From positions 1 to 44,975 of the IMG/VR virus record IMGVR_UViG_3300020442_003370: a stretch of DNA of 44,975 bases. The stretch is one strand, 5' to 3'. This DNA is from a virus. The position numbers were made by a program, and so were the translations under genes. This document shows, piece by piece, positions 4,600 to 27,141 of this stretch. The notes below the pieces were generated by a model. It saw only the letters and a program-made list of their open reading frames with translations, was not told the DNA's origin and did no database searches. The stretch's first letter is position 1. Each line of letters opens with the position of its first letter.

Positions 4600-4601
4600 T
4601 T

Positions 4602-4748: not shown

Positions 4749-4751
4749 ATA
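4744..4751 (+). promoter_or_regulatory. Late promoter octamer GATAAATA before gp25
   Basis: This is an exact match to NATAAATA, the T4-type late motif used in cyanophages (gp55-like sigma with the sliding clamp). It lies 26 bases before the gp25 ATG and overlaps the TAA of the 48-aa gene, so the start of a new late transcript is built into the end of the preceding gene. Confidence 0.75.
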
Positions 4752-4777
4752 TATTTGTATAAAGTCCTGACAGGGAG

Positions 4778-5197
4778 ATGACATTAAAAACTATAGGTGG
4801 GTCTAATTTTACCAAATCAAAAAGTTTTTTTGATTTTTCGATAAATTTTTCTAAAAATCCTTTTACCGATGATCTCTCTGTCGTGAAAAATGATAACTCC
4901 ATCAAACAAGCAGTTAAGAATTTAATCATGACTGCTCCTGGAGAAAAACCGTTTCAACCGCTAGTTGGTTCTTCCGTAACTAATCTTTTATTTGAACCTT
5001 TGGATGGATTCACCGCAGATTCAATAAAAGATGAAATTGTGACAACAATTAATCAATTTGAACCAAGAGTGAGACTTACTAATTGCAATGTTACGCCAAT
5101 TTTTGAAAGTAATAAATTAAATGTATCAATTGAATATCAGATAGTTGGTTTACCTATTGTTGAAACAATAGAATTTGTTTTACAGAGACCAGAGTAA
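4778..5197 (+). CDS. 25: Baseplate wedge protein gp25, 139 aa
   Basis: gp25 is a small wedge protein that joins the inner baseplate to the first sheath ring in contractile tails. Family signatures visible are PGEKPFQPLVGSSVTNLLFE (residues about 54-73) and the conserved INQFEPRVRL (near 87-96), followed by beta strands ending in IEYQIVGLPIVETIEFVLQR. The length fits T4 gp25 (132 aa). The family looks like lysozyme only in older annotation; no catalytic role is implied. AGGGAG directly precedes the ATG, a close-set ribosome-binding site. Its stop overlaps the gp6 start as TAATG. A late promoter lies just upstream. Confidence 0.9.
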   Translation: MTLKTIGGSNFTKSKSFFDFSINFSKNPFTDDLSVVKNDNSIKQAVKNLIMTAPGEKPFQPLVGSSVTNLLFEPLDGFTADSIKDEIVTTINQFEPRVRLTNCNVTPIFESNKLNVSIEYQIVGLPIVETIEFVLQRPE

Positions 5198-7230: not shown

Positions 7231-10200
7231 ATGAATATTAATAAGGTCTCCCAGTCTATTGCCGCTCAGTCTCCTGAGTTCTTAAGGACAGAATATCCTC
7301 TGTTCAATAAGTTTATTGAGTATTATTATAGGTCTCAAGAAAAGACTGGTCTTGGTCAAAATATTATTAATAATTTTCTTCAATATCTTGATATTGATAA
7401 ACTGGATATTAATATTTTAGATGGTTCTACTAAAGTTGTAGAAGCAATTGATAAAGATAGTGACACTATTATTGTTGAGAGTGTTGATAATTTTTTAGAC
7501 ACTAATGGATCTATTTTAATTGGTGATGAAGTAATTTATTACGAAAGTACAACATCTTCTCCGAATATTTCTTTAAATCCTGGTATTTCTTACGATCAGG
7601 TAAAATTGAAATGGACGGGTCTTGCTCAAATTTGGGATTCCTTTAACGGAACTGCGAATAGATTTCCTCTTACATCGCAATCTTCCCCCATTTCTCCACC
7701 TACAGCACAACACTTGATTGTTAGTCTCTATGGAGAAGTCCTGAGACCTAATATTGACTATACTATTGAAGAAAACAATATTGTATTTACAACGGCACCA
7801 AGAGGTAGGATTACTGGTGATGATCCATCTTCCACATATATTACATTCTTGAGTGGTTTTATTGAAAATACAATCGTTGCCATTGATGATATTTCAGCAT
7901 CTTTTGGTGATAATGTAACTGAATTTAAAATTCGTAAGAATGGTGAGGACTATGAACCAATCGCTGATGAATATATTTTAGCAGTATATGATAATACTCT
8001 TCTTAAACCCAAGGTAGATTTTTTCATTGATGGAAATACCTTAATTTTTGAAACAGCACCTTTGAATGGACGAAGCTTGTCTTTGTATTCTATTGAAGCT
8101 CCTATTCCTAGTTTTGGATCTGGTGCAGTTGGATACTCTCGCATCAGTTCTGATGGAGAATTGACTTCCATTCAAATTTCTAAAACTGGTTCTGGTTATC
8201 AATATAAGTATCCCCCAAGAGTTTCTATTACCAGTGAGAATGGATCTGGTGCTGCAGCAGATGCACTAGTAAATGGTGTTAAAAATTCTATTTTATTAGA
8301 TGGTGGTAAAGGATATAGTGATACTAATCCCCCAACAGTAGAAATTGAATCTCCTACTAGTTCGGGTTCTATTAAATCTGAACTAAAGGCCGTTGTTACC
8401 AACGGTGTTGTTTCGAGTCTTCAAATTGAAAGTTCTGGAAGTGGATATACTTTCACACCTAGAGTGACATTCAAACAACCTGGAGGGGCAAAACTTGGGA
8501 ATGTAACACTTACTAGTGGTAGTATTTCTGGTAGTATTTCCGTTACAAACGGTGGTCAAGGATATACTACTGTTCCTGAAGTATATGTCGATGAACCAAC
8601 TGGAACCAACCCAGTAAAAGCTGTATTGACTGCAGTTTTAACCGATGGTGTAGTTACTTCTGTTACCATCACTAATCCTGGTCAAGGTTATACTACCACT
8701 CCTAGAGTTGCTATCATTGATCCTGTTGGTGCTCAGGTCTTAGAAACGAATGTTGACAGTAGTGGGCGAGTTACGTCTATTGAACTTCTTAGTGGTGGAT
8801 CTGGATATGATGATATTCCTTCTGTGTATATTGTTGGTGGTGACGGAACTGGTGCAACTGCTGTTGCTTCTGTTTTTAATGGTAAAATTACTGATATTAA
8901 CATCACTAATTTTGGATCAGGATATTCTCAAGCAAATCCACCAACAGTTATCATTCAAGATCCTCCACAAGCGAGAGCATCTGTTGAAATTGGATTGAAT
9001 GAGGTTACTGGATTTAAAATTTTTAAATCTGGAACTGGTTATGAAAAAGCAAAGTTTATTGGATGTGCCAGGGCAGCAAGCGGCATTATTGAATATACTG
9101 AAAGTGGAAATGCAGTATTTTCTAATAATACTACCGCATCTGCAGTATCTGCAGATGCAGAGATTAAATGTTTAGATTCTTTATTTGTCAAAAGACTTTT
9201 AGACAAATATACGGAACAATTCCTTCCAGATGTTCCTGAACTTGATTACAAAAAAATTGATGTACGAAATGCAATTAAATCTGTAAAAGATTTTTATTCA
9301 TCTAAAGGCACTTCTTTTAGTATTGCATATTTATTTAAACTTCTTTATGGTGAACAAGTAACAGTTTCTTATCCAAAAGATCAAATTACAAAACCATCTG
9401 CAGCAACTTGGTCTATTGATACTATTCTTCGTGCAACTTTAGTTAGTGGCAATCCTGCAAATATTAAAGACGGTCTGTTAACTCAAGAAGAAAATATTGC
9501 AGATCCCAATGTAAAGGCGGCTAGTGCTTTAATTGAAAATTACATCGCAATCAAAACATCGGAGACTGATATTTACGAGTTAGTTCTTTCCGAAGAAACT
9601 ATCACAGGCACATTTATTGTGCCTTATAAAACAAAACTCGCAGAACCACTTGATACAGTTGAAAGTATTATCACTGTAGACTCGACTATTGGTTGGCCTG
9701 AGAGAAATGGTGAGTTTATTATTGGTGGAACTGAAGTAATTCAATACAAAGAAAAATCTCTTAACCAGTTTATTGAGTGTACTCGTTCTGTTAATGGCGT
9801 TACAGAAGATTGGGATTCTGCAACTGAAGTTACTTCAAATTTAGTCGTATATGTTAATAAAGGAACTTCCGAAGAAGTCGTTTTGAATATTGTTGGTATT
9901 GTTGATGCTCAACAAACAACATTAACTAATACGGGATCATACTATCTTTCTGGAGATAAACTTACAGTATCTAAACTTGGTGGTACATCGGTAAAACCTG
10001 AGTTGACCACATGGTTGTATAATGTCAAAAAACTTTTAGAAGTAGATAATATTACTTTCGGAGGTGTAAATAATCAATCTGCTACGGTAACTTGTGAAAA
10101 TTCTCATGGTTTGTTAGTTGGAGATCAGGTTACCATTTATGGTGCAAATCCGATTGTATACAATGGAACTTTCTTAGTCACATCCAGAGATAGTTCTACA

Positions 10201-13200
10201 GTATTCCAATATCAATTACCTCAACCAGCAGAAGTTGCACCTCAAGGCAATATTTTGGTTTCCGTTGACCTTAACAAAGGCAAATCTGATAATAGTGCAG
10301 TTTTGAATTCTATTGGTCCTTATACAACCAATATTCAAAATTCGTTCTTTAACGATAATTATGTTTATGTTGCATCTACAGGTATTCCTAACTATAAAAT
10401 TGGTCCTTTCCCAGGATCCGCACTTTTACCAGGAAATCAACGTAAACTCAATAGATTCCCTCTTGATCCACAAACAATTTCTGTAAAAAATCAAATTGCT
10501 CCTGGACCTATTGGCACTTGGATTAATGGTACTTCTATTTGGTCGTACAAATCCACGAGTACAAAAACTTTTGGACCGATTACATCAATTGACATCCTTA
10601 ATGCAGGATCTGATTATGATGCATCTTCTCCTCCAACGATTAATATCGAAGGTGGTGGTGGATCTGGTGCTACTGGAGCAGTCACTGTAAACGGTTCTAT
10701 TACCGAAATTATCGTAAATGAGGGTGGTAGTGGATATACATCTTCTCCTCTGGTTTCTATTGTTGGTGGTGGTGGATCTGGTGCTGCAGCAACTGCAATT
10801 GTTACCAAAGGTGTTGTTTCTAGTATTCTTATGAATACTGGAGGTACAGGTTATACTTCTCAACCAACTATTACTATTGTCGGCGGTGGTGGAACTGGTG
10901 CAACAGCAACTGCTTCTGTTAGAGGTCCCGTAAAATCTGTTAGCATTACTAATGGAGGCGAATCTTATACATCTGAACCAAGTGTAACTCTTAGTTCTGG
11001 ATCAGGTGCAGTTGCACAGGCAATTGTAAGCAATGGAAGAATTATATCTGTTGCGATTATTTCTGCAGGTAGTGGATATACTACTGCTCCTGAGGTTTCT
11101 ATTCAAGGTGATGGTTTTGGTGCAGTTGCTCGTGCCACAATTGATACTGATGGTGAAAATGCTGGAAGAGTAACTGGCATTGAGATTATCAACAGAGGTA
11201 TTGATTATATTCAAGGTACAACATTAATCAATCTTACTTCTGTTGGATCTGGTGCAGTATTTAAACCAAATGTTTTTAAATGGACTTATAATCTTCAGGA
11301 AACTACAGAAATTGATTCTGCAAAAGGATCTGTATTCACTGGTTTTAATACCCAATATGGTGGTGAATATGCTCATATTTCAAATCCTCAAAGATTGAGA
11401 TATATTCTTGGAGATAATCTTTTTCAAAATACTAACGATGAAATTTTAGAGCAATCTGATCAGATCGAACACTCTCCTATTATTGGCTGGGCATTTGACG
11501 GAAATCCGATTTATGGACCTTATGGATATTCAGATCCAACTAATCAATCGTCTAATATTATCAAATTAAATAGTTCTTATAGATTAAAACTAAATTTGGT
11601 TGTAGATGTAATTACTAATCCAAATCCAGTTAGAACTGCAGGTCCTTTATTGTCAGATGAACCTGCTGGTAAGTTTATTGAGGATTATGAATATTCTTTT
11701 GGTTTGGGCGATCTTGATCAGTATAATGGTCGTTTTTGTAAAACACCAGATTTCCCTGATGGTAGATATTGTTACTTTATAACCATTGACAATACTGAAG
11801 CTGGTAATTCAGTATTCCCTTATGTAATTGGTCCGAGTTTTAATTCTATTGTAGATTCTTGGAATTTGAATAAAGATGCAATTCAACAGAATATTCCTAC
11901 TGGTGTTGTAAGATATCGTGATCCGTATGAAAATGTTGATATTGATGTTGAAAGGGCACCTAACGTCTCATCAAATGCGTTAACAACAGAAGATGGAGAC
12001 ATCTTACTTTTTGATATTGAAGATGAAAATAGAGATGGTGTAATTGATGCGGCTGAAGCTGCTGACCCAGATCAAATATTTGAAGAATCTCCTCTTCAAT
12101 TGTTTGATTATTTCCCTAAAGTTAAGTTTGATTCTAAAGTTGATATTGAAGTTGAAACAACTACAAAATTTGAAGATGCATCTGTAAGTGGATTTATTAT
12201 TGAAGATGCAGGAAAGAGCTATCAGGTAAATGATATCCTTGTTTTTGATAATGAAGATACTGATGGAAGTGGTGTCTCTGCCAGAGTTTCTAGAATCAAA
12301 GGTGAGAGCGTTAGTTCTTACACATTTGAAACTGTAGAAGATAAGTTCTATGGCGTATTAACAACATCCGATCCTCATAATATGATTGTTGGGGATACTG
12401 CTTATATTAGTTATCTTCCTATTATGGATGAAACTAATAAAACCTTTGTAGTTAGACAACTTAAAGGTGTAGAAGAAATTGTTATTAGTCAGACAGGATC
12501 TGGTTATGATGCTCAAATTCCACCCACAATTATTATTGATGGAGATGGAGAATCTGCAGAATTAAAGGCTAAAGTATCTAGCACTGGTTCAATTACTGAA
12601 GTGGATATTATTAATGCTGGATCTGGTTATACAAAAGATCCTCGCGTAATTTTATCTCACCCTCAGGTGTTCAAAAAGGCAAATTATTATGTTGCTTTGG
12701 TTGAACATGAAAATTATGTAAAAATTAATGATATTTTTGTCAATGATGACAAAGAAGTTTTCTTCTGTGGTAAAACTTTAGATTCTTCAAGCAATGAAGT
12801 TGCCTTTATTTCCAAATTCTCCGAACTTGGTGTAAAAGAGTGGGAAAGAACTCTCGAAAGTTTAGTTGGAGAAACTTATACCGAATTCTTAAAGTTAGAT
12901 GTAAGTGGGAATAATATTTGGGTTGTTGGACAAAATAAACCAAATATTGTATCACTTTCTGCATACAATCCTGATATCATTCTTGCAAAGTATGTACAAG
13001 CTGCTGATGGATTGAGTGCAACGCTAAGTTTCCAGAAAGGATACTCTGGAATTTCTGGTTCTACCCGAGCCGACAATGTTAGTACTATTGCCAAATATTC
13101 TGATAGTAGATATATTATTGGCGGATATACAAATACGAACTCTGCAAATCCTCAGGATGCTTTCATTGCTTCTATTGACTCAACTGGCGATTTTGCTGCA

Positions 13201-16200: not shown

Positions 16201-19200
16201 ACTGCAGAAGGTCAACCTACTCCAACAGTAAAATTAAAAGTTGATAGGGAATTTGTTACTAATATTTCATATTACTTTGATCCTTCTAGAACTGGTGCAG
16301 ATTCTCCCATTGATACAAGTAGTTATCTTGATATTGTGGATTCACCTTATTTGGGGACATTTACTATCACAGGAGTTGATGGTGCTACGATTACCCAAGG
16401 ACCAAACGTATTTAAATTCCTTCTTGCAAATGAACCAGAAGCCAATGCAAATATTACAAAAACTTCTTATACGACAAGTTCTAAAAAAGCAGTTGGTGCA
16501 ATTGGAGACATAAGATTAGTTAATTCAGGTGGATTCTATTCCAAGTTGCCAGTTATTACAAATATTCAATCATCTAGAAAAATTGAAAGAGTTCAAATTA
16601 ATGAACCTGGAACAGAGTATGCTGTAGGTACATATAATTCGGTTCCAATCAAAGGGGATGGTGAAGGAGGATTTGTTTCTATTACTGTTGCTGATGGTAC
16701 AGATAGTGAGGGAGAAACTATTCCTGGACAAATTCAAGAGGTGTCAATTACTTCTCCTGGAAAGGGATACACCACTGCTTCTATCGATATTGAATCCATT
16801 GAAGGTATCCTTGGACCTGGATTAACTGGATCTGGTGCTGAGATTGAAGTTGTTATTCCCGCTTTTGGATCTGGTGCTGTTATCTTTGCTAAAGGTGATA
16901 ATGTTGGTAAGATTAAAAAACTTAAGAACAATAATTTTGGTTATGACTATACACATGACTATACTCTTCGTCCTGAGATTACATTCCCAATCAATGCACA
17001 GTTAACATCTACCAGTATTCTTGATAGTATCACTGTTACTGACCCTGGTTCTGGATATTCTCAAGCACCTTCTGTAGAAATTACAGGTGGCGGTGGATCT
17101 GGTGCTATTGCTGAAGCAACTATTAAAAATGGTAGAATTGACACTATTGAGATCAAAGATCCTGGTGCAGGATATTCTTCTGCTCCAAATGTTAGACTTA
17201 AATCTTCATTTAATTATGTTGTTAACCTTGATTTGGGTTTACTTCAGTTTGCTTTTCCCCATGGAATTACTAATGGATCTGAAGTTACCTTAAACGTTAT
17301 TGATACTGGAGATGGTACAGAGTTTCCTTTAGCATCTGGTGCTATTGGTAGATTAAATGCAACTACAACATATTTTGCTATTACAGGTGCTGCAAATTCT
17401 CTAGAGAATGATCAAATGAAACTCGCCATCACTGCAGCAAATGCTGAATTGGGTGATGCTATTGCTTTTGTTAATGCTGGAACTGGTAGGCAGCAAGTAT
17501 TGACAGAATCTTTTGGTGCAGCTGCCACTGCAAATGTAATTACTTCGACATTCTTAGAAGGTGAACAGGTCTATCAGGGTGAATCCTTAGATCTTTCTAC
17601 TGCTACTGGTTATGTTTCTACTAATCAAGGTTGGCAAATTGGTCCTAGAATTTTGAAGATTGTAAATTATGAAGGCAATTTTGTTGAAGGTGAAAGTGTA
17701 ACAGGTGTTATTTCTAAGTCTTCTGGTGTTATTAGTAATGTTAATATTGCAAAGGGCGTTCTAGAAATTGGATCTATAACAAAAACTACGGGACAATTCA
17801 TTGATGATGTTGGTAAACCTTCTGAAATTATTCAGAAGATTCAAGACTCTTATTATTATCAAGACTTCTCTTATGCGATTAGATCTTCTGTTTCTATTGG
17901 AGACTGGAAAGATATCCTTGTTAAGAATGTTCATCCCGCATCCTTTAAAGTTTTTGGTGAACTTAATTTGGAGGAATATGGTTATACTGCAAATAAAGAA
18001 ATTGATTTTGAACTTACAAAGTCTGTAGAACTTGCAAGAAATGCAATTGTTCCTAATATTCAAAATTTTGCTTTAGCCGAACCAATTTATTCTGAGTTTA
18101 ATAATACTGAAGTTCTTTTCCGTCAGAAAAAACTTACTTCTTCAGAAAACATTCTGACTTCAGTTGTCCAAAGATTGGATGATATTTCTAATCTATTTGA
18201 TGGTGTTAAAAAGCAATTCCCACTTACCGTTGATAATGGAAATAATGTTATTGCAAATGCAAATCAACTTTTGATTGTTCTTAATGGTGTTGCACAAACT
18301 CCAAATACTTCTTTTGAAGTTCAGGGAGATTCTATTATTTTCTCCGAACCACCACAACCTCCTGCAAGTATAAAATATGTAAACATTGGAGTTTCTCAGA
18401 TAGCTACAAAGACGTTATCATTCACATTTACTAGTGGTCCTTTCCCCATCATTGGTAATAGTATAGTTGGTGTTGTCTCTGGTGCTCGTCTTACTGTAAC
18501 TTCTGTTATTGGTAATGATGCATCTGGTTTTGTTACTGAAGGAACATTCCAGATAAATGAGCAGTGTCAAGTTGGGGCAACAGGATTCTCAGGAACACTT
18601 TCTGCTATTACAGATGTTGTAAACAGTGGATTATTTACTTTTAATGAACAAGTCACAAATCTCACTGGAAATACTGCAAAGGTAGAAGTTGTAAACCTCG
18701 AAACGGGTCAAGAGACACCAGTTGCAAAACTTCGTTATAGTATTGGTGCTGCTACAACATCTATTGAAGTTGTATCCTCAACATCTAATACAGATGCTCC
18801 TGTTGCTACAGGAACATTTACTTTGAATGAGAATTATCAAATCGGTTCTGAAATTGTAACAGTTACATCTGTAACTAATGGGTCGGAATCAACAACAATA
18901 GTTGTAACAAGAGGTGTACTTGGAACTGCATCTGTATCTCATCAAGAAGATGCTCCAGTTTATTCTACTGAGATTGAAATTACTAACTCTCTTACATTGA
19001 GTAAAACTGCTGGTACATATCAGTCTACTCCTGGATTATATGATATTCAGTTAGATGATTATATTATTGGTGCTCAATCTGGAGTTGTTGCTCGTGTTAC
19101 TTCTACTAGTGCATATCAAGATCCTACAACTAATGAATTTATTGAGCAAGTCAACATTTCTGCTGGTTCATCTTTCTTTGGTTTACTTTTCAACCGTTTA

Positions 19201-22200
19201 GCATCTGTTACTTATCCTAATGCTATTCTGGACGATATTTCAAAATCTCAGATATCTATCGTCGATTTTGACGATAATCAAACAGCATTTAACACCGATT
19301 TTCCGTCTAGCGAATCTATTAGTAATAATATTATTGTATATGATGGAGAAAGTGGTGACTTACAAGATGATGAATTTATCAGAAACTATAAAATTGAATA
19401 TGGTTCTGAGGTGGGTGGTAATTTCACTGATAGTGAAGATGTTACTGTTAGAAAATTAACATTTACGGATTCTGTTGGAACTGGATTCTTTGCTGAGGGA
19501 CATGTCATCAGAACTGAAGATACTAAAGCATATGTTGTTGGATACAATCAAGCAACTAAGACTGTATATCTGGGTAAAATTGGTCGTTGTTTATCCACAG
19601 GTGAAGATTACTTTGATATTACTTTTAATGGAGATGCAGAACTTGATACTGCTCAGAAAAAGTTTGGCACATCTTCACTTGTTCTAGATGGAACTGGTGA
19701 TTATCTCTCCATCCCAACTTCCACTGAACTTGGACTTGGTTCTGCTGATTTTACTATTGAAGCTTGGATTCGTCCTGCAAACGTAAGTGGTGCTAAAGCA
19801 ATCATCGACTTTAGAACCACTGGAACTGAAGTTTCTCCATATCTGTATTTGGATGGTGCAAATCTGAAGTATTTTGTAAATGGTTCTGTTGCGATTACTG
19901 GCACGGCAACTCTTGCCGCAAATACTTGGTATCATGTCACTGTTTCTAGAACAAGTTCAGTCACTAAGATGTTTGTTGGTGGTGTACAAGATGGAAGTAA
20001 TTATTCTGACTCGAATAATTATGGCACTACAAAACCAATTAGAATTGGTGCAACAGTTGTTCCTGGTGACTTCTTTAATGGACATATTGATGAGGTTAGA
20101 GTTTCGGATACTGCTCGTTATACGGCACCATTTACTGCATCCACTCACATGTTCCAAGGTGATAGCAACACCGTTATGTTATTGCATTTTGATGGTGCTG
20201 ATGAGCAAACCTATACTGAAGATTGGTCTGGTGGAGAGTCTTTAACAAATAATGAAGAGTTTAACAATGATGCAATTCTTGCAACATATAATGCAAATGA
20301 TCAAGTTGCACCTGTAACTGGATTTGATGGCAAGACTCACAGATATTATGATGCTGCAAATCTGATTATCGCTAACAAAGACTTTGTTGCTAAAGAAGCA
20401 GTCTATCTGTTAACTCAGCAATATCCTTCTTTGGTTATTCCTGGCGGTAACGTAAATTGTGAAGATGATGTTCGTGACATCTTAGATGCAATTGTTGAGG
20501 ATATGCGTAATGGTTCTAATAGTCATATTTGGGATGCTTCTGCTCTCTATGTCGATAGAACTGCAAATCCCATTACTATCAGTTATGTTGACACTGAAGT
20601 TACAGAAACTGTTTGGGCATACGATAAGGTCAAAGAAATTCTTCAATATATCATCAACAATGTGCTTTGGACAGTTCAGGGTAGTCATGGTTTAACTCAG
20701 TTTACCGATTCCACCTTAACTGACTCCGATAATAATACATACACCACATTTACTCCGACTGCAGCAACATATGATGCGGCAACAGGTGATCTTGTTCTGA
20801 CTATTGGAACCAACTCTCTTACAACATCTTCTTTGGTTGCATTAGAGCGTGATTCCATCACATTTACTTGTGCAGATGATGGTAATGATCGTGAAATTGC
20901 TTACCCAGATAAAGGTAATGCAACTGCATATGATAAAGTTCTTGCGGTGAAGGCAAGAACTAGCACCACTATTACTGTAAATGTTGGTGCTTCTCCTGTT
21001 GGTCAGCGTTACGCTCACACATTTGTTAGTGCTACTGCAAATGCTGTTAAGGTTCTGAATTACACCACAGGTGATTGTGCTGATGTTTATTCTACCATCA
21101 GCAACCTGCTGGATATCCTTACAGATACTTTAGAGCAAGCAGATCTCGTCACCCCTGTAGATCATCTTGCAACCATCACTAAAGTTCAACCAGCAAGAGA
21201 ATTCCAAGGCGGAACAGTTGATGCATTTGACGAATTAACATTCACAACTTCATATCATAATTCTACAGATAATATTCTTTATGCAAATCAACTTGATACG
21301 GATTCTCAATACAGATTTAGAGATGCTGCAAATCTGATTAGAGCAAATACCTCTGTTATTGTAGATAAAGCAGCATATGACATGATTCAGAGGTATCCTG
21401 ATCTGTCAAATGATATGCCCAGAAACACTGATGGAAGTGGTGCAGGTACTCTAAGGTGTAAGACTGATCTTGGACTTATTGTTGAAGCAATTGCTAAAGA
21501 CATTGAATTTGGTGGCAACAAGAATACAGTTAGAGCTGCTAAGTTCTATGTTGATAATAAAAATGAACTGCAGTATATCAGACTTCAAGTCTGGCAATCT
21601 GTTTATGCACATGACAGACTTGGTGTATATTTAAAGCAGGCAATCACTGGTGATTTAACCTATGATAATACAGATAATATTATTACTGGTGACTGGGGTA
21701 TTACAAATGATGCTGGTGGTTGTGCAAATGTCAAGACAGCAATTGATACTTTAATTACGACTATCAACGATATTATTGCTCCTACTAATAATGATTTTAA
21801 TATCGGTGGAGATAGACTCTACTTCAATAGAGAGTTTATTGCCGAAGAGATTGCTGGTCGTAGCGGACAGTTGGGTTTACTTGGTGCAGAACTTCAATAT
21901 ACCATTGTCAGTGGTACATTCTCTGCAACAACATATGATATTACTGACTATCAGCAATATTTGGAGGACTTTATTATTGCTGCAATTTCTGATCTTCAAA
22001 CGGGTGGCAACAATAGTTCCATTGCTCAAATGGAGAAGTTCTTGAGTTCAAATAAAAAAATTATTACTATTGATGAAGAACTTTATGCATTCTTCTTCGC
22101 ACACGAATCTCTTAAGACTCTTAGTGAAAAGGCAATAAAGAATTTGCTTTATAGTAATGGTGATAGTGTATCTGGAGATCAATATGCGGCAGTTTATACC

Positions 22201-25200
22201 AATAACGTTGCATACAGAGATACTGAATCTCCTAGTGACATTGATGAGGTTTGGTATAGAATGCGAGATCTTATTGATTTTGGATTAGAAACATTATTCC
22301 CAGGTGGTCTTGAAGCAAGAAGTGCTGTTAAGAATATTCTGTTCAATAAAAACTATTATAAGAATGAAATTTCATCCCTTGTCAATAGTCAGTTTGGATC
22401 TAATTCTTGGACTTATGATTCATTTATTGATGATGTCATCAATAACATTGAATATGATTATTTGACATCTAATACAGTTGATACTCAGACTGCATATACA
22501 CTTACTTTTAGTGCTTTTAGTGGTGAATTTGTTGTTGGTGAAACCGTTACTGGTGGCAGTACAACAGCAACTGTTCTTTATACTTCCGAATCTAAAATGG
22601 TTATTGGAAGTCTTAGTGGAACATTATTTACCGATGAAACAAGTCTTACTGCTCCTTCTGGTGCTACAGCAACAATTGCTGTTGGTGGCGTTACCACAGC
22701 ACATGAATGGTACAATAATTTTAGTAATGTAAAAACGATTGAGAATGCAAGAACACTTTCTTCTTTGGTTGAAGGATCTGTAGACAATACTAATCTCTGG
22801 ACTCTTCCTGAGCAGTTTGACTCAAATTGGACAACTAATCTAACTACAGTTACTGCTAATAATGGATTTAGTCCTGAAAATACAAAGACCGCTGAAAAGA
22901 TTGTAGTCACTGAGACTACAGGTCAGCATTATATTGAAAGATCTTATAACTTGACAGCATACACCACTTTTGATTCTAATGGTGTTCGTTTCGATAGTGA
23001 CTCGACTAGATTTGACGCTGGTTCAAATAATTCTATACAAACATTCACTGCCTCTATGTTTGTTAAGGCAGCACAATATGACAATATTCAAATGCAGGTT
23101 CTTTTAGATACTGGTGCTGCATTTGCTAAATTCTCTATGAGTTTGACCACAGGTGTAGTACAAAATCTTTTCCAAGAAAAAGATAATAGAGTTGTTGATT
23201 TTAGTTATGACAGTACAACCGATGATAGTAGAGCAGCGGGAACATATGCAGTTTCTGCAGCTTCTGGTAGCATATCTGGTACTGGTGCAGGATTTAATGT
23301 TGTAGTATCTTCTGATGGAACTCCAACAATAACACTAACCTCTGCGGGTATTAATTATGCTGTTGGTGAAACAATTACAATTTCAGGTTTTAATATTGGT
23401 GGTGGCGCTGATGTTGTTCTTACAGTAACAGAAGTTGACGCTCCTGCCATGACAGTCTCTGGTTTTGGTGCAATTCCAATTGGTGGTGGTTGGTATAGAG
23501 TATACATTACTTCTAGTTTCGGATTTGGTTTTGGTGCTCTCAAAACTAGACTTAATGTTCTTAGTAATAATGGTGCAGTTCTCGACTTTACTGGTGTTGA
23601 TAATGATACCAAAATTAATCCTGGAAATAATCCTGGAACTTATAGTTACTTTGGTGGTGGTCAGGGTAGATCTGCTGATGTTGGAAATGGTAAGTATGTT
23701 GTTGCTTCTCCATATCAAACATATAACGGACAATCTAGAGCGGGTGTTGCTCGTATTTACGATTTAGATGGTACAAATGAAATTTTACTTACTCCATCCA
23801 CTTCTAGATCTAATGCATATTTTGGATGGTCTGTAGCTGTTGGTAGCAACAAAATCGCAATTGGTGCTTATAGAGATGGTGTTGCCGCTTCAAATTCTGG
23901 TGCAGTTTATATTTACGATTTGGATGGATCTAATGAAATTCAAATCGATGTATCTGATGTTCCTGGTGAAACTGCTAGCACTTATGATTACTTTGGATTT
24001 GACGTTGCTATTGCTAATGATTTAGTCTTTGTTGGATGTCCATATTATGATGGTAGTGGCAGAGTTAACGATGGTGCTGTATTTGTTTTTGATACAATGG
24101 GAAGTTATGTAAGAACAATTCAAGCATCTGATAGAACAAATTATGATTATTTTGGATATTCAGTTGCAGCTAGTAATACAAAAGTTGTTATTGGTTCTCC
24201 TTATGACGATGATAATAGTGCCTCTGCTTCGGGTTCTATCTATATCTTCGATCATGACGGAACAAATCAAGTGAAAGCATATGCAGCAACACCAGTAGCT
24301 AATGAATACTTTGGTATGGTTGTTGACACTGATGGAAATAATATTGTTGTTGGTGCTCCTTATGCAGATAGAAATGGTTTGACTAATTCTGGTGCTGCCT
24401 TTATTCTTGATATGGACGGTACAAATCCAATTGATCTTACTGCACCTTCAGGAAGGCGATCTTCATACGATTACTATGGATGGTCTGTTTCTATTCGTGA
24501 TGGTAAAGTTGCAGTTGGTGCAAGATATGATGAAGTTAATATTAGTTCTCAAGGTGTTGTTTATCTTTATGATGATGATGGAACAAATGAGCAAGAAATT
24601 GTTGCGTTTGATGGTGCTAGCAATGACTACTTTGGTTCTACTGTAATTCTCTTTAATGATCAACTTTATGCTACTGCAGAAAGAGATAATTTTGGTAGAG
24701 GTTCTGCATATATTATTGATATTAGTGGTGGTTCTGGCATTTTTGCTTGGGGTGCTAAACTCACAAATAAACCAATTGGAACTTATACATCAGTTCTTGG
24801 AAGATCTTTCTATACTAATACTGAATATACCATCAAAACATTTACTATTGAACGCTTGTTAGATTATATTGAAAGAGCACTCTCTAATAATTTGGTAAGT
24901 CCCTCCACCTCATCTAGTTTCTATAAGTTCTATGATTCTGCAGTATCTTCAAATTACAATGTAAACACTGCTATGTCTTTAGTTAGATATAGTTTAGAAA
25001 TAATTAATGAACAACTTGGAGACAGTGAATATTATACAAATATTACAGAAAATAATGCATTGCCTGTACTTGTTCAGAGTAGTAGCACAACCAGTTACTC
25101 CAGTGGATATACACCCTCTGGATCAGGTTCTTCAGTAACTTCTACATTAACAAAATTCTATGGTGATCGTGACATTCCTGTTGGAATTAGTGGCGAAGTG

Positions 25201-27141
25201 GTTCAATCGGACTATATCTATTCTATTGATACTGATACCTCTTCAGAAATTCAGAAATTGACTCTTAACGAAGCAAAGGTTGTTAAGGCATATAAGAGAT
25301 TCAGAATTGATGGTGTTATTACAGATGGACCATTCACTATGAATGAATCTGTATCTAAACAAGGAGATGCTGCAGTAACTGGTGTGGTTTATGCTTTCTA
25401 TGAAGATGCTAATTATAAGTATCTTGACGTTGCTGTAACTGCAGGGACCTGGGCAGTAACTGATACTATTGTTGGAGCAGAAAATACAACTACTGCTCAA
25501 ATAAGTGCAATTGAGAATCGTTTGCATGTAATTGATCTTATCGGAACATTTGAGAATGATATTCCGTTTAAATCATATACAAGTGATGAGACTGCAGAAC
25601 CAGTTTCCTCAACCAAAAATGACGCTGCTGTTACTGATAACACAGGTGGAACTCTAACAGTTGACACTGAAACTCTTTCGGGATCTTTTGAAACCACATC
25701 TGTTGTTTATCCAAGTTCTTCTAGAGAGTATTTGGAAGTTGTAAAATACGATGGACTCGATATCAATGTTGGTGATAAAGTTGCATCGATAGGTCATGTT
25801 AGATTAACTGTTACTGTTGATGCTCAATTGGATTCTTTCACCGCTGGAAATAGATTATATAGAATTGTGAATGGCGGACAAGATACTGGTAATTACGGTA
25901 TTATTACAGAATATGATTCCAGCAATAATTACATTTACTATGTTCCTGTTTTAGGTACAATTGGGTCTAGTGATGATGTTGGAGATTATGGGGTTAGTGG
26001 CGAAAGTTTAGTTGGCGAAGCAGAAATTACAGCAAAAACTACAATTGCTGGTGCAGCATCTGCTCGTGTTCAACTCGTTCAAGATTCCTCACTCAACAAA
26101 AAAATATATCTTAGTGATGTTAAAGGTACTTTCTCTTCAAGAGATGGTCTTAGGGGACCAGATAATTATAGATCTGCAGTTGTAAATAAAGAATTGATGA
26201 GGGCTAGAGTCAAGAGATTCTTTAAAGGATTTGACGGAACTCAAACCACATTTGATTTAACTACTGGAAATGGTACGCAATACTTACCCGATCCAGATGG
26301 TCATATGATGATTTTTGTTAATGGTATCCTTCAACCACCAGGTGCGTCTGCTGCATATACTGCATTCTCTGATAAGATTCAATTTAGCGAACCACCAGAA
26401 CTGGGAGCATCGTTTACAGGATTCTACCTGGGTAAACTGAGACAATTGGATGATATTGGATTTGAATTTGATTCTTTACGCCAATCCTTTAACCTCAAGC
26501 GTAATGATGTATTCTATTCATTAACACTTACTGAGGGTGTTCAGTCTAGTGTTATCAGACCTGAAAATAATATTATTGTTTCTATTAATGGAGTTCTTCA
26601 AGAACCTGGTGTTGGTTTTGAAATTGTTGGTTCTAGAATTATCTTCTCGGAAATTCCTAGATTTGGATCTACTTTCGTAGCGTTCTCTTATGTTGGATCT
26701 GAAGCAGACGTTGATTCTGATGAGGTTGTCCCTCCAGTTGAGGCGGGAGACTTTTTAGAGATTGAAGGTGAAGTCTCTGAGAGAGAAGTTGCTGTTATTG
26801 AATCTTCAAATTCTTTGATCACATACGATTATCTAGGATCGGTATTTGGACAAAATGCAAATGCAACTGCTAATTTGACAAATGGATTTATTGAAAAAGT
26901 TAGTGTTACTTCACCTGGATCTGGATATACTTCTAGACCTGTTGTGAGATTAGATTCTATTTCTGGATTTGATGGTCAAGTAAAAGCACTCATTGGTGTT
27001 GCTGGAGTAACTATTACAAATCCTGGTAGTGGATATCAAAATCCAGATGTTGATATTGAAACAACTGTTCCTGATGATTGGACTGCACCAAATCTTGCCG
27101 ATTATGGTGAGGAGGTAATTGATCCTGAAGTAATCTCATAA
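7231..27141 (+). CDS. Giant mosaic baseplate/fibre protein in the gp7 position, 6636 aa
   Basis: A single frame of 6636 codons starts 6 bases after gp6, where T4 encodes wedge protein gp7 (1032 aa). Residues 1-60 (PEFLRTEYPLFNKFIEYYYR) and 652-720 (VKDFYSSKGTSFSIAYLFKL, YGEQVTVSYP) resemble the conserved core of large cyanophage structural proteins found at this site. Accessory modules follow: GSGY repeats (296-615, 1117-1347 and scattered), a YHYH-like domain (about 1355-1560), a propeller-like region (about 1824-2200), LamG-like domains (2329-2505, 4127-4327), helical repeats (4370-5080), a seven-blade FG-GAP propeller (5473-5850) and NGVLQ-type repeats (from 136, 220, 3647, 6329 and 6408). 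No signal peptide or membrane segment was seen. I infer a very long peripheral baseplate or fibre component that may contact host glycans. The frame is intact throughout; the exact family is uncertain. Confidence 0.85.
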   Translation: MNINKVSQSIAAQSPEFLRTEYPLFNKFIEYYYRSQEKTGLGQNIINNFLQYLDIDKLDINILDGSTKVVEAIDKDSDTIIVESVDNFLDTNGSILIGDEVIYYESTTSSPNISLNPGISYDQVKLKWTGLAQIWDSFNGTANRFPLTSQSSPISPPTAQHLIVSLYGEVLRPNIDYTIEENNIVFTTAPRGRITGDDPSSTYITFLSGFIENTIVAIDDISASFGDNVTEFKIRKNGEDYEPIADEYILAVYDNTLLKPKVDFFIDGNTLIFETAPLNGRSLSLYSIEAPIPSFGSGAVGYSRISSDGELTSIQISKTGSGYQYKYPPRVSITSENGSGAAADALVNGVKNSILLDGGKGYSDTNPPTVEIESPTSSGSIKSELKAVVTNGVVSSLQIESSGSGYTFTPRVTFKQPGGAKLGNVTLTSGSISGSISVTNGGQGYTTVPEVYVDEPTGTNPVKAVLTAVLTDGVVTSVTITNPGQGYTTTPRVAIIDPVGAQVLETNVDSSGRVTSIELLSGGSGYDDIPSVYIVGGDGTGATAVASVFNGKITDINITNFGSGYSQANPPTVIIQDPPQARASVEIGLNEVTGFKIFKSGTGYEKAKFIGCARAASGIIEYTESGNAVFSNNTTASAVSADAEIKCLDSLFVKRLLDKYTEQFLPDVPELDYKKIDVRNAIKSVKDFYSSKGTSFSIAYLFKLLYGEQVTVSYPKDQITKPSAATWSIDTILRATLVSGNPANIKDGLLTQEENIADPNVKAASALIENYIAIKTSETDIYELVLSEETITGTFIVPYKTKLAEPLDTVESIITVDSTIGWPERNGEFIIGGTEVIQYKEKSLNQFIECTRSVNGVTEDWDSATEVTSNLVVYVNKGTSEEVVLNIVGIVDAQQTTLTNTGSYYLSGDKLTVSKLGGTSVKPELTTWLYNVKKLLEVDNITFGGVNNQSATVTCENSHGLLVGDQVTIYGANPIVYNGTFLVTSRDSSTVFQYQLPQPAEVAPQGNILVSVDLNKGKSDNSAVLNSIGPYTTNIQNSFFNDNYVYVASTGIPNYKIGPFPGSALLPGNQRKLNRFPLDPQTISVKNQIAPGPIGTWINGTSIWSYKSTSTKTFGPITSIDILNAGSDYDASSPPTINIEGGGGSGATGAVTVNGSITEIIVNEGGSGYTSSPLVSIVGGGGSGAAATAIVTKGVVSSILMNTGGTGYTSQPTITIVGGGGTGATATASVRGPVKSVSITNGGESYTSEPSVTLSSGSGAVAQAIVSNGRIISVAIISAGSGYTTAPEVSIQGDGFGAVARATIDTDGENAGRVTGIEIINRGIDYIQGTTLINLTSVGSGAVFKPNVFKWTYNLQETTEIDSAKGSVFTGFNTQYGGEYAHISNPQRLRYILGDNLFQNTNDEILEQSDQIEHSPIIGWAFDGNPIYGPYGYSDPTNQSSNIIKLNSSYRLKLNLVVDVITNPNPVRTAGPLLSDEPAGKFIEDYEYSFGLGDLDQYNGRFCKTPDFPDGRYCYFITIDNTEAGNSVFPYVIGPSFNSIVDSWNLNKDAIQQNIPTGVVRYRDPYENVDIDVERAPNVSSNALTTEDGDILLFDIEDENRDGVIDAAEAADPDQIFEESPLQLFDYFPKVKFDSKVDIEVETTTKFEDASVSGFIIEDAGKSYQVNDILVFDNEDTDGSGVSARVSRIKGESVSSYTFETVEDKFYGVLTTSDPHNMIVGDTAYISYLPIMDETNKTFVVRQLKGVEEIVISQTGSGYDAQIPPTIIIDGDGESAELKAKVSSTGSITEVDIINAGSGYTKDPRVILSHPQVFKKANYYVALVEHENYVKINDIFVNDDKEVFFCGKTLDSSSNEVAFISKFSELGVKEWERTLESLVGETYTEFLKLDVSGNNIWVVGQNKPNIVSLSAYNPDIILAKYVQAADGLSATLSFQKGYSGISGSTRADNVSTIAKYSDSRYIIGGYTNTNSANPQDAFIASIDSTGDFAAKRKIASASGSEKITDLIVLNDAVYFVMETATSDGNADSKVAFGKALIGTSAIDVQWIKEINNTVYSFRNTSLVVDEFDEFYISATLALKSDNNTKNSFWIGKLDTDGDLIWNYRYVTPSGSNIDLASKANIDIFGDLNIAYTRTDSTTNQKTVDTVRIGYDGKLKKHTNHNFNKNNIEGITVNSITVDNSGDPYIFGQTQWNRNEVLCEFASDATDKTGHYTLSTLSATGSDAVKYEGGYAKIFGKDATAGRLLTVDTISAADASRTEGTYAISASDYTTDASGTGATFSVVVDGTGAATITITNPGSGYAVDETFTITDANLGGGGGASLTFDAATVSAVDDWVNGAIKVVGTDLGTKLDGDFTIEFMLHKDADETNDHSQTEQTLIAIGDASDSTGGLWMYYDIGNGKLELIVTNNSNTINSASTPLASTQTTMFADDSWQFIGLKKEGDVFTAYVNGISVISSTITNTDFEDKDLHFGNIPGRDGTAGSFRYNEQGQFYIDNLRIRNRAVTPDVPSDVTAVPPTNTFALAYDWTDDDWFTDYVKRYDYIDYVGWGLKTDKDSDSDRLGDQGTQTNTNVGFVRTAITPVTGSILTVTNTGFTLGSAGLQGLDFEDANISMSQDSETLTYSSDEWSSRTATVPSPGSRKLKISAGVKNRYYMKVTSTSKVDNIQELTINQDFNFTVGSKLVLNNTSGSFVNSGYVLRVDNTDNKVYLAVNNNSWSNDLNTGRLSTAQFDESSSYGIVGKQPNDINVITDYIFADKVNTTPGTFDFDLADYNLDKTAATTGNGDLDEFATFKSFNINHYSVRIVEISGSSAFIPGSVIDITSADISFNAAKSTARITNLTGVTKITLISTLDKILQATAVSNTDEVYVITGKRHYLSVGDNIFVDGNPTRQVGSIAYDEYDGSFVVDTVVSNKEFIYKLPATAVSDPTTTPGDVSIFAKSPVLKMYYGHQYLFDVSHSSMLGSNISFSKDNLYKLEYSFNSIDRVGTPGVTAEGQPTPTVKLKVDREFVTNISYYFDPSRTGADSPIDTSSYLDIVDSPYLGTFTITGVDGATITQGPNVFKFLLANEPEANANITKTSYTTSSKKAVGAIGDIRLVNSGGFYSKLPVITNIQSSRKIERVQINEPGTEYAVGTYNSVPIKGDGEGGFVSITVADGTDSEGETIPGQIQEVSITSPGKGYTTASIDIESIEGILGPGLTGSGAEIEVVIPAFGSGAVIFAKGDNVGKIKKLKNNNFGYDYTHDYTLRPEITFPINAQLTSTSILDSITVTDPGSGYSQAPSVEITGGGGSGAIAEATIKNGRIDTIEIKDPGAGYSSAPNVRLKSSFNYVVNLDLGLLQFAFPHGITNGSEVTLNVIDTGDGTEFPLASGAIGRLNATTTYFAITGAANSLENDQMKLAITAANAELGDAIAFVNAGTGRQQVLTESFGAAATANVITSTFLEGEQVYQGESLDLSTATGYVSTNQGWQIGPRILKIVNYEGNFVEGESVTGVISKSSGVISNVNIAKGVLEIGSITKTTGQFIDDVGKPSEIIQKIQDSYYYQDFSYAIRSSVSIGDWKDILVKNVHPASFKVFGELNLEEYGYTANKEIDFELTKSVELARNAIVPNIQNFALAEPIYSEFNNTEVLFRQKKLTSSENILTSVVQRLDDISNLFDGVKKQFPLTVDNGNNVIANANQLLIVLNGVAQTPNTSFEVQGDSIIFSEPPQPPASIKYVNIGVSQIATKTLSFTFTSGPFPIIGNSIVGVVSGARLTVTSVIGNDASGFVTEGTFQINEQCQVGATGFSGTLSAITDVVNSGLFTFNEQVTNLTGNTAKVEVVNLETGQETPVAKLRYSIGAATTSIEVVSSTSNTDAPVATGTFTLNENYQIGSEIVTVTSVTNGSESTTIVVTRGVLGTASVSHQEDAPVYSTEIEITNSLTLSKTAGTYQSTPGLYDIQLDDYIIGAQSGVVARVTSTSAYQDPTTNEFIEQVNISAGSSFFGLLFNRLASVTYPNAILDDISKSQISIVDFDDNQTAFNTDFPSSESISNNIIVYDGESGDLQDDEFIRNYKIEYGSEVGGNFTDSEDVTVRKLTFTDSVGTGFFAEGHVIRTEDTKAYVVGYNQATKTVYLGKIGRCLSTGEDYFDITFNGDAELDTAQKKFGTSSLVLDGTGDYLSIPTSTELGLGSADFTIEAWIRPANVSGAKAIIDFRTTGTEVSPYLYLDGANLKYFVNGSVAITGTATLAANTWYHVTVSRTSSVTKMFVGGVQDGSNYSDSNNYGTTKPIRIGATVVPGDFFNGHIDEVRVSDTARYTAPFTASTHMFQGDSNTVMLLHFDGADEQTYTEDWSGGESLTNNEEFNNDAILATYNANDQVAPVTGFDGKTHRYYDAANLIIANKDFVAKEAVYLLTQQYPSLVIPGGNVNCEDDVRDILDAIVEDMRNGSNSHIWDASALYVDRTANPITISYVDTEVTETVWAYDKVKEILQYIINNVLWTVQGSHGLTQFTDSTLTDSDNNTYTTFTPTAATYDAATGDLVLTIGTNSLTTSSLVALERDSITFTCADDGNDREIAYPDKGNATAYDKVLAVKARTSTTITVNVGASPVGQRYAHTFVSATANAVKVLNYTTGDCADVYSTISNLLDILTDTLEQADLVTPVDHLATITKVQPAREFQGGTVDAFDELTFTTSYHNSTDNILYANQLDTDSQYRFRDAANLIRANTSVIVDKAAYDMIQRYPDLSNDMPRNTDGSGAGTLRCKTDLGLIVEAIAKDIEFGGNKNTVRAAKFYVDNKNELQYIRLQVWQSVYAHDRLGVYLKQAITGDLTYDNTDNIITGDWGITNDAGGCANVKTAIDTLITTINDIIAPTNNDFNIGGDRLYFNREFIAEEIAGRSGQLGLLGAELQYTIVSGTFSATTYDITDYQQYLEDFIIAAISDLQTGGNNSSIAQMEKFLSSNKKIITIDEELYAFFFAHESLKTLSEKAIKNLLYSNGDSVSGDQYAAVYTNNVAYRDTESPSDIDEVWYRMRDLIDFGLETLFPGGLEARSAVKNILFNKNYYKNEISSLVNSQFGSNSWTYDSFIDDVINNIEYDYLTSNTVDTQTAYTLTFSAFSGEFVVGETVTGGSTTATVLYTSESKMVIGSLSGTLFTDETSLTAPSGATATIAVGGVTTAHEWYNNFSNVKTIENARTLSSLVEGSVDNTNLWTLPEQFDSNWTTNLTTVTANNGFSPENTKTAEKIVVTETTGQHYIERSYNLTAYTTFDSNGVRFDSDSTRFDAGSNNSIQTFTASMFVKAAQYDNIQMQVLLDTGAAFAKFSMSLTTGVVQNLFQEKDNRVVDFSYDSTTDDSRAAGTYAVSAASGSISGTGAGFNVVVSSDGTPTITLTSAGINYAVGETITISGFNIGGGADVVLTVTEVDAPAMTVSGFGAIPIGGGWYRVYITSSFGFGFGALKTRLNVLSNNGAVLDFTGVDNDTKINPGNNPGTYSYFGGGQGRSADVGNGKYVVASPYQTYNGQSRAGVARIYDLDGTNEILLTPSTSRSNAYFGWSVAVGSNKIAIGAYRDGVAASNSGAVYIYDLDGSNEIQIDVSDVPGETASTYDYFGFDVAIANDLVFVGCPYYDGSGRVNDGAVFVFDTMGSYVRTIQASDRTNYDYFGYSVAASNTKVVIGSPYDDDNSASASGSIYIFDHDGTNQVKAYAATPVANEYFGMVVDTDGNNIVVGAPYADRNGLTNSGAAFILDMDGTNPIDLTAPSGRRSSYDYYGWSVSIRDGKVAVGARYDEVNISSQGVVYLYDDDGTNEQEIVAFDGASNDYFGSTVILFNDQLYATAERDNFGRGSAYIIDISGGSGIFAWGAKLTNKPIGTYTSVLGRSFYTNTEYTIKTFTIERLLDYIERALSNNLVSPSTSSSFYKFYDSAVSSNYNVNTAMSLVRYSLEIINEQLGDSEYYTNITENNALPVLVQSSSTTSYSSGYTPSGSGSSVTSTLTKFYGDRDIPVGISGEVVQSDYIYSIDTDTSSEIQKLTLNEAKVVKAYKRFRIDGVITDGPFTMNESVSKQGDAAVTGVVYAFYEDANYKYLDVAVTAGTWAVTDTIVGAENTTTAQISAIENRLHVIDLIGTFENDIPFKSYTSDETAEPVSSTKNDAAVTDNTGGTLTVDTETLSGSFETTSVVYPSSSREYLEVVKYDGLDINVGDKVASIGHVRLTVTVDAQLDSFTAGNRLYRIVNGGQDTGNYGIITEYDSSNNYIYYVPVLGTIGSSDDVGDYGVSGESLVGEAEITAKTTIAGAASARVQLVQDSSLNKKIYLSDVKGTFSSRDGLRGPDNYRSAVVNKELMRARVKRFFKGFDGTQTTFDLTTGNGTQYLPDPDGHMMIFVNGILQPPGASAAYTAFSDKIQFSEPPELGASFTGFYLGKLRQLDDIGFEFDSLRQSFNLKRNDVFYSLTLTEGVQSSVIRPENNIIVSINGVLQEPGVGFEIVGSRIIFSEIPRFGSTFVAFSYVGSEADVDSDEVVPPVEAGDFLEIEGEVSEREVAVIESSNSLITYDYLGSVFGQNANATANLTNGFIEKVSVTSPGSGYTSRPVVRLDSISGFDGQVKALIGVAGVTITNPGSGYQNPDVDIETTVPDDWTAPNLADYGEEVIDPEVIS
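8116..9075 (+). repeat. GSGY beta-repeat block 1 in the giant protein
   Basis: There are eight units of about 35-45 residues, each with a 'GxGY..xPP.V.I' turn followed by 'G.GA.A.A.v.nG.vtsi.i...G'. The turns read GSGYQYKYPP, GKGYSDTNPP, GSGYTFTP, GQGYTTVP, GQGYTTTP, GSGYDDIP, GSGYSQANPP and GTGYEKAK. The block lies between two segments of the conserved core, so it looks like an insertion expanded by tandem duplication. Confidence 0.85.
10579..11271 (+). repeat. GSGY beta-repeat block 2 in the giant protein
   Basis: There are six units with turns GSDYDASSPP, GSGYTSSP, GTGYTSQP, GESYTSEP, GSGYTTAP and GIDYIQGT. Several units end in GGGGSGA or GGGGTGA, encoded by near-identical GGTGGTGGTGG-type runs. 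The block sits between WSYKSTSTKTFGPITSIDIL and the YHYH-like core, so it appears to split that cassette. Confidence 0.85.
11330..11850 (+). other. YHYH-like domain in the giant protein
   Basis: The hallmark HSPIIGWAFDGNPIYGPYGY ends at residue 1433 and is followed about 60 residues later by LDQYNGRFCKTPDFPDGRYC and YFITIDN, the standard end of YHYH domains. The position where the family carries its Y-H-Y-H motif appears to read YAHI (residues 1380-1383), so the naming motif is degenerate. The role of the domain in virions is not established. Confidence 0.7.
12690..13840 (+). other. Beta-propeller-like (SBBP/delta-60 type) region in the giant protein
   Basis: There are repeating blades of the kind 'i.vd..g.iyv.G.t......aflsKld.dG...W.r': EVFFCGKTLDSSSNEVAFIS, SRYIIGGYTNTNSANPQDAF, EFYISATLALKSDNNTKNSF followed by WIGKLDTDGDLIWNYRY, and DPYIFGQTQWN. 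Blade borders are irregular, so the blade number cannot be fixed by eye. Confidence 0.55.
14215..14745 (+). other. LamG/concanavalin-like domain 1 in the giant protein
   Basis: Shows the LamG order: DGDFTIEFMLHKDAD, then LIAIGDASDS, then LELIVTNNSNTI, then DDSWQFIGLKKEGDVFTAYV followed by NGISVIS, and finally GQFYIDNLRIRNRAV. Such jelly-roll domains often bind sugars. It follows directly on a GGGGGA-type module (13966-14214). Confidence 0.7.
19609..20211 (+). other. LamG/concanavalin-like domain 2 in the giant protein
   Basis: A near-textbook LamG domain: FGTSSLVLDGTGDYLSIP, then GSADFTIEAWIRPANVSGAK, then NTWYHVTVSRTSSVTKMFVG, then HIDEVRVSDTARYTAPF, and the closing LLHFDGADE. It is a much better family match than the first copy, suggesting independent acquisition rather than recent duplication. 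Confidence 0.85.
20338..22450 (+). repeat. Helical repeat region in the giant protein
   Basis: Copy 1 has YYDAANLIIANKDFVAKEAV and DDVRDILDAIVEDMRNGSN. Copy 2 (from about 21307) has RFRDAANLIRANTSVIVDKA and LIVEAIAKDIEFGGNKN. Copy 3 (from about 21802) has LYFNREFIAEEIAGRS and FIIAAISDLQTGGNNSS. A weaker fourth lies near 22330. Copies 1 and 2 share an identical 19-base stretch (20350-20368 and 21322-21340). A beta module with HTFVSATANAV separates copies 1 and 2. Helix-rich segments stand out in an otherwise beta-rich protein. Confidence 0.7.
23641..24740 (+). repeat. Seven FG-GAP-type blades: integrin-like beta-propeller in the giant protein
   Basis: There are seven consecutive units, each beginning with a 'Y-(F/Y)-G-x-x-V' motif at residues 5473, 5530, 5587, 5640, 5693, 5748 and 5800 (spacing 57, 57, 53, 53, 55, 52). 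Each has the form YFGWSVAVGSNKIAIGAYRD, then SGAVYIYDLDGSNE. DxDG-like loops (DLDG, DHDG, DMDG, DDDG) recur between blades and may bind calcium. Seven blades is the closed-propeller number for this family. Confidence 0.8.
26200..26700 (+). repeat. Tandem NGVLQ-type repeats near the C-terminus of the giant protein
   Basis: Two tandem units have the pattern 'FDG..TtFdL ... i.VsiNGvlQ.Pg..f......I.Fse.P..gs.f..f': FKGFDGTQTTFDL with MIFVNGILQPPGA and IQFSEPPELG, then FDSLRQSFNLKRN with IIVSINGVLQEPGVGF and IIFSEIPRFG. Related units occur at about 7636 and 7888 and at about 18170 in the same protein. Confidence 0.75.

Follow-up and report, generated by a model that had tools for sequence, protein, structure and literature searches.

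What does a single reading frame that fills 44% of a 44,975-base virus record encode, and how did it come to be so long? The record, analyzed here over its whole length (the window), carries tail-cluster genes of a T4-like marine cyanophage. After a PAAR-like protein come gp25, gp6 and the giant gene, then a connector of the gp9/10 type, a YHYH wedge protein and gp8; beyond them lie a protein of the DUF4815/VrlC type, a tryptophan halogenase and a tail protein whose N-terminus is of the Mtd type. Our analyses argue, with fairly good confidence, that the giant protein is a gp7-type wedge protein of such a phage, remodeled into a peripheral, module-displaying baseplate arm made of one ~713-kDa chain. 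The giant gene and its assigned neighbors are as follows:

4778-5197, + strand: gp25 (with gp6, PHROG 261 and 219; PF21379)
5197-7224, + strand: gp6 (with gp25, PHROG 261 and 219; PF21379)
7231-27141, + strand: giant gp7-type baseplate wedge gene (open reading frame; PHROG 701; orthologs after gp6 in ~300 phages)
27165-28385, + strand: gp9/10-type connector (PHROG 677, 708 and 438, PF07880 and YHYH for the downstream trio)
28391-32533, + strand: YHYH wedge protein, 1380 aa (second of the trio)
32569-34101, + strand: gp8 (third of the trio)

The existence of the giant frame is confirmed. It starts with ATG and runs for 6,636 codons without a stop, encoding 713 kDa (ORF listing), so that a sequence-only reading of this DNA, which had claimed one frame of that length and coordinates, a product of about 700 kDa and a size more than six times that of T4 gp7 (1,032 aa), was accurate on each count. 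The protein has a pI of 4.4 and 16 cysteines. At the base composition of the window, the chance of 6,636 stop-free codons is ~1e-214, and codon-position GC is uniform throughout the gene and similar to that of the adjacent genes. Ratios of pN/pS, calculated per 300 codons over the aligned parts, are 0.15-0.43 versus S-CAM22 and 0.20-0.63 versus S-MbCM100, and the protein is under purifying selection in all parts aligned with these two phages. The frame contains no internal stop in any of 20 annotated phage relatives (the P-SSM5 copy is truncated by the end of its record), and of 80 environmental contigs, 79 keep it open to the end of the available DNA, over up to 4,381 codons. A search for tandem DNA repeats found none. 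An assembly or sequencing artefact, to which a stop in the frame of the remaining contig might be taken to point, is next to impossible and was rejected on the stop-free odds, the open frames of relatives and contigs, and the purifying selection. In that single contig (L051), the stop may reflect faulty assembly or a disrupted gene.

The place of the gene after gp6 had led the earlier reading to liken it to T4 gp7 from position alone. The order gp25, gp6, giant is present in the window and in every relative read, T4 gp7 (5hx2, 5iv5) likewise follows gp6, and the likeness now extends to sequence homology, which lies in a core found in the giant as separate blocks:

7231-7590, + strand: N-terminal core segment, residues 1-120 (BLAST: P-HM1, S-RSM4, S-CAM7, P-SSM5, S-CREM2, phiM7)
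9034-10056, + strand: gp7 core, residues 602-942, with PF23786 at 661-720 (Pfam, PDB profile, hhalign)
17833-18033, + strand: second gp7 core piece, residues 3535-3601, motif VHPA (phiM7 and S-CREM2 ends; T4 gp7 864-889)

When a profile of residues 596-960 and their relatives was compared with all PDB sequences, T4-type gp7 was the sole family matched (E 3e-5), and hhalign aligned the giant core with T4 gp7 at T4 residues 730-787 (E 2.3e-6). Residues 1-120 alone gave no signal against T4 gp7; residues 9-125 of the phiM7 protein align with T4 gp7 643-761 (hhalign E 2.5e-5), and giant residues ~5-720 correspond to T4 gp7 643-790. For the second piece (residues 3535-3601), the counterparts in short relatives are terminal: the final 65 residues in phiM7 gp7, and likewise the end of the S-CREM2 version. 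Its alignment with T4 gp7 864-889 (~860-890; E 8e-4) is short (26 columns) and weak by itself. A Foldseek search of predicted residues 1-960 against 350,542 chains ranked T4 gp7 first and second, at a nonsignificant best E of 0.019 and a TM of 0.07. The two T4 gp7 core pieces are collinear in the giant, blocks 1-120 and 602-942 are joined directly in short relatives, and the same collinear blocks occur throughout a size ladder from 1,006 to 7,351 aa. Collinearity and the joined blocks of the short relatives thus point to growth by insertions in a small core, with ~2,900 residues appended beyond residue ~3600, the ancestral C-terminus of gp7. From these comparisons, we infer that the giant is a remodeled gp7. 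T4 gp7, at less than a sixth of its length, lacks counterparts of the inserted modules and the extension, and no counterpart of T4 gp7 residues 1-640 was found in the giant. The gene order also differs: 6, 7, 8 in T4, whereas in the window two further tail genes lie between the giant and gp8.

The giant belongs to a known family. Its first 4.8 kb of DNA has matches in 321 phage records (best P-SSM7, 79.5%), nearly all of them named cyanophages or phages of Synechococcus or Prochlorococcus, and the first 1,000 residues of the protein, used as a query, retrieved 479 records, 290 of them with query coverage of 80% or more. A giant gene after gp6 is present in about 300 sequenced cyanophages, with measured lengths of 1,937-7,351 aa: P-TIM40 7,351; P-SSM4 7,312; P-SSM7 7,124; ACG-2014d 6,817; S-SZBM1 6,619; S-TIM4 6,603; S-RIM50 6,405; S-RIM2 6,378; S-CAM22 6,273; S-CAM8 6,167; syn9 6,076; S-MbCM100 6,064; P-HM2 4,454; P-HM1 4,446; S-CAM7 4,314; S-RSM4 3,515; S-PM2 3,048; and S-CREM2 1,937. 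The version in the Sinorhizobium phage phiM7 has 1,006 aa. The size of the giant is therefore not new, and the unusualness implied earlier is not supported. PHROG 701 is the family that describes the protein, and its cyanophage members (such as P-SSM7 PSSM7_090, P-SSM4 gp7, S-CAM22 C350210_079 and S-SZBM1_208) share the core and the place after gp6. The closest named relatives of the giant-bearing phage are P-SSM7 and S-CAM22, whose giants are 73-81% identical to the window protein over long stretches. Cyanophage giants are annotated as "baseplate wedge initiator," "virion structural protein" or giant gp7, some records thus already naming the gene gp7, and the core homology strengthens this identity. 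Across S-CAM22, S-MbCM100 and S-RIM50, the gp7 label falls variously on the upstream 964-aa ORF, the giant, or the downstream 1380-aa ORF. The annotation in S-MbCM100 and S-CAM22 of a 964-aa or 1380-aa neighbor as gp7 was rejected, as Pfam shows no gp7 core in these proteins and the giant has it.

Orthologs have also been detected in virus particles. Table 1 of PMC9146016 lists S-SZBM1_208, a "baseplate wedge initiator" of 6,619 aa and 724.2 kDa, for which particles purified with CsCl yielded 71 peptides (13.5% coverage); in the genome record this gene adjoins gp6 and sits in the gp8 cluster. The short S-CREM2 version yielded 91 unique peptides (PMC10665884). The table entry supports the claim that the giant is a virion gene and answers much of what the virion mass spectrometry proposed earlier was to establish, apart from representation along the whole chain: at 13.5% coverage, the published peptides might miss the C-terminal part of the S-SZBM1 ortholog.

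Between and after the core pieces lie modules of several kinds:

8188-9042, + strand: glycine-rich G-x-G-Y beta repeats, one of several blocks (motif positions 320-601; predicted beta strands)
11350-11793, + strand: YHYH domain, residues 1374-1521 (PF14240, E 4.7e-30)
18166-18357, + strand: fiber-type beta domain, residues 3646-3709, first module past the ancestral C-terminus (profile match)
19687-20118, + strand: LamG lectin-like domain, residues 4153-4296 (PF13385, E 2.1e-23)
20329-21180, + strand: phycobiliprotein-fold repeat 1, residues 4367-4650, split by a beta unit; Cys4410, Cys4616 (helA profile; PF00502; repeat alignment A4 versus PDB)
20752-21042, + strand: ~95-aa beta unit, residues 4508-4604 (iterated HMM search)
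21286-21795, + strand: phycobiliprotein-fold repeat 2, residues 4686-4855; Cys4743, Cys4831 (AlphaFold, Foldseek, hhalign)
21796-22320, + strand: phycobiliprotein-fold repeat 3, residues 4856-5030, no cysteines (helA profile; AlphaFold)
22315-22515, + strand: fourth repeat, partial and weak, residues 5029-5095 (helA profile, 17 bits)
23617-24729, + strand: FG-GAP array, six repeats, propeller-like, residues 5463-5833 (PF14312, E 8e-50)
24727-27138, + strand: conserved C-terminal region, residues 5833-6636 (BLAST 32-77% identity; conservation profile)

Together with the gp7 core, these bear out the claim of at least seven module types, and several binding heads, as also proposed, are plausible from the predicted LamG, FG-GAP and fiber-type domains. 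The fiber-type domain matches, by profile, the tail fiber gp28 of cyanophage P-SCSP1u (8i4m, E 5.7e-4), and similar stretches occur elsewhere in the giants. Conservation over 13 giants is high up to residue ~4150 and again from ~6000; residues ~4150-5830 are the most variable, with whole modules gained or lost and copy numbers differing between close relatives. The window-specific stretch at 5463-5833, between the conserved parts, is the FG-GAP array, which is missing in 12 aligned giants and has relatives in 20 of 50,697 phage records, including a structural protein of S-TIM5. Copy numbers of the beta unit and of the repeats differ as well: the window has one copy of the ~95-aa beta unit and P-SSM7 and P-SSM4 have ~14 matched stretches, and thus beta-unit copy number accounts for much of the length difference among giants. 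The module block at residues 4201-4800 (window 19831-21630) was likely exchanged recently, because its dS versus S-CAM22 is lowered (0.51-0.64, versus ~0.8-1.4 over most of the gene).

In a peripheral arm of this kind, the core pieces at ~5-720 and 3535-3601 would probably hold the protein in the wedge alongside gp6, gp25 and gp8, as is the case in T4, and by analogy with T4 there may be six copies per baseplate. The modules gained between and after the core (glycine-rich beta repeats, YHYH, fiber-type, LamG, phycobiliprotein-fold, FG-GAP and the conserved C-terminal region) would be displayed outward and may serve in host attachment. Alternatively, the chain could be a precursor, translated whole, with cleavage during assembly separating a gp7-like part (up to residue ~3700) from at least one fiber or adhesin part derived from the extension. 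An ancestral C-terminus at ~3600 would be in keeping with this, since the extension could then work unjoined, and repeats similar to those of the extension occur in separate tail proteins of S-PM2 and S-RSM4. Against it stand the continuous frame in all phages read and the single 724-kDa entry in the virion proteome (PMC9146016), an entry that is itself silent on cleavage, and we consider cleavage unlikely. The single-chain wedge arm thus remains the preferred reading.

The giant family and its size being known, what is new is the presence in a tail protein of phycobiliprotein-fold repeats, of which we found no earlier report in the open-access literature searched; nor were phycobiliprotein domains in phage particles reported there. 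Residues 4367-5095 very probably share common descent with the phycobiliproteins (phycocyanin, phycoerythrin and allophycocyanin). Pfam gave a borderline Phycobilisome (PF00502) match in the giant, and we then assembled 46 helical-repeat copies drawn from 14 giants (alignment A4) for comparison with the PDB. The resulting profile matched 117 sequences at E up to 10 (best 1.2e-4), and among the 60 matches listed all but one are phycobiliproteins, the lone exception being a designed repeat protein that scores by adding up many sub-threshold repeats. A reversed profile of 24 repeat copies had zero matches in the PDB. A template-free AlphaFold2 run on residues 4686-5030 produced a confident model (pLDDT 88.6, pTM 0.86), for which the best 50 of 350,542 PDB chains in Foldseek were all phycobiliproteins, with a probability of 1.00, TM by target of 0.56-0.73 and, for this predicted structure as query, E values of just 0.013-0.17. 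By hhalign, a full-length repeat profile matched a phycocyanin-type profile at E 2.7e-9 over 137-146 columns, with one repeat subfamily alone reaching 1.3e-8 and beta subunits alone as target 1.5e-5; the reversed control gave 0.23 and eight column shuffles 0.54-0.94. The phycocyanin-type profile itself consists entirely of sequences from cyanobacterial genomes. As regards the N-terminal helical hairpin by which phycobiliproteins form alpha-beta dimers, the sequence alignments begin near phycocyanin residue 33-38, and the Foldseek alignments, reported without residue ranges, span 151-167 columns. The profile comparisons did not discriminate between the alpha and beta types of phycobiliprotein for the repeats.

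Convergence of helical bundles without common descent would fit the identity of merely 13-21% and a PDB Foldseek E of 0.013 at best. However, sequence profile and predicted fold, with all of the 50 best PDB matches in it, indicate one family, the reversed and shuffled controls fail, the cysteine-x-x-Asp motif aligns, and tblastn matches to one repeat are confined to cyanophages (358 of 358 phage records, partly in proteins annotated as tail fibers). Convergence is accordingly quite improbable, and on common descent the likeliest origin of the repeats would be a captured host antenna gene.

Whether such repeats still carry pigment is a separate matter. Cys4743 aligns with the bilin cysteine 82/84 by profile alignment, as does Cys4410 by repeat alignment. 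Most phage repeats retain this cysteine and the Asp at +3 (26 and 29 of 31 full copies, respectively); unlike phycobiliproteins, they lie in tandem inside a virion protein and have mostly lost the Arg at +2. The second cysteine tentatively corresponds to phycocyanin Cys153, an assignment that is tentative because it was aligned by the combined profile only. These correspondences would suit captured pigment-binding domains that bind bilins covalently, with the bilin enzymes of the phage and its T-type lyase, CpeT, loading them; in such a putative pigmented tail, the baseplate or fibers might serve in light sensing or be shielded from light. CpeT is frequent in the myoviruses compared (15 of 21) and bilin reductases are occasional (7 of 21), in each case including phages with few or no repeats; however, CpeT also has host-directed explanations (PMC10452541). 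Two of the four window repeats (3 and 4) lack the bilin-position cysteine, and over the copies the two cysteines tend to be present or absent as a pair (31 with both, 12 with the first only, 2 with the second only, 16 with neither; a p-value for this is inexact because the repeat copies are related), as expected of a disulfide. Such pairing is consistent with a disulfide, as an extracellular protein might have, and would be consistent with two sites for pigment as well; of these we favor the disulfide.

The distribution of the repeats bears on the same question. They are present in 17 of 23 phages (a genome-wide search of 21, plus P-SSM2 and P-SSP7) and absent genome-wide from S-CREM2, P-SSM5, phiM7, T4, P-SSM2 and P-SSP7. 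P-HM2, a phage that fails to adsorb in darkness, has the repeats and P-SSP7, which does infect in darkness, lacks them (PMC7112961), a contrast that would suit light sensing but involves a handful of phages and proves nothing. S-PM2, whose gp7 is without repeats, was dropped as a counter-example to a role in light because the genome-wide search placed 13 matches in two further large proteins of this phage. Taken together, covalent bilin binding is very unlikely; were it true, a light-sensing tail would help explain the light-only attachment of some cyanophages. The likeliest present role of the repeats would be structural or adhesive, with the paired cysteines as a disulfide.

The giant family thus suggests how a ~1,000-aa wedge protein of the T4 type became a module-swapping chain of up to 7,351 aa in widespread marine cyanophages, the size ladder showing a route by insertions into a small split core and an appended arm. 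To judge from the repeats, an antenna fold of the host may have become part of the virion proper, beyond carriage as a metabolic gene. Pigmented or not, they would clearly exemplify how a light-harvesting fold can be turned into a component of a phage tail, and they bear on the targets of the cyanophage CpeT and bilin enzymes and on the light control of attachment in some cyanophages.

The same repeats occur in large tail-fiber proteins of S-PM2, S-RSM4 and P-HM1/P-HM2, but there in separate tail genes and not in gp7: in S-PM2 p091 (record L177, 28492-37001) and at 166-170 kb in S-PM2, at 81-84 kb in P-HM2, and at 102-103 and 170-173 kb in S-RSM4. In the window itself, a tryptophan halogenase-like flavoprotein (42239-43690; PF04820, E 3e-96) lies amid the tail-structure cluster, and it is followed at 43738-44973 by a tail or structural protein, truncated at the window end, whose N-terminal domain is of the major-tropism-determinant kind (PF18454, E 4.6e-14).
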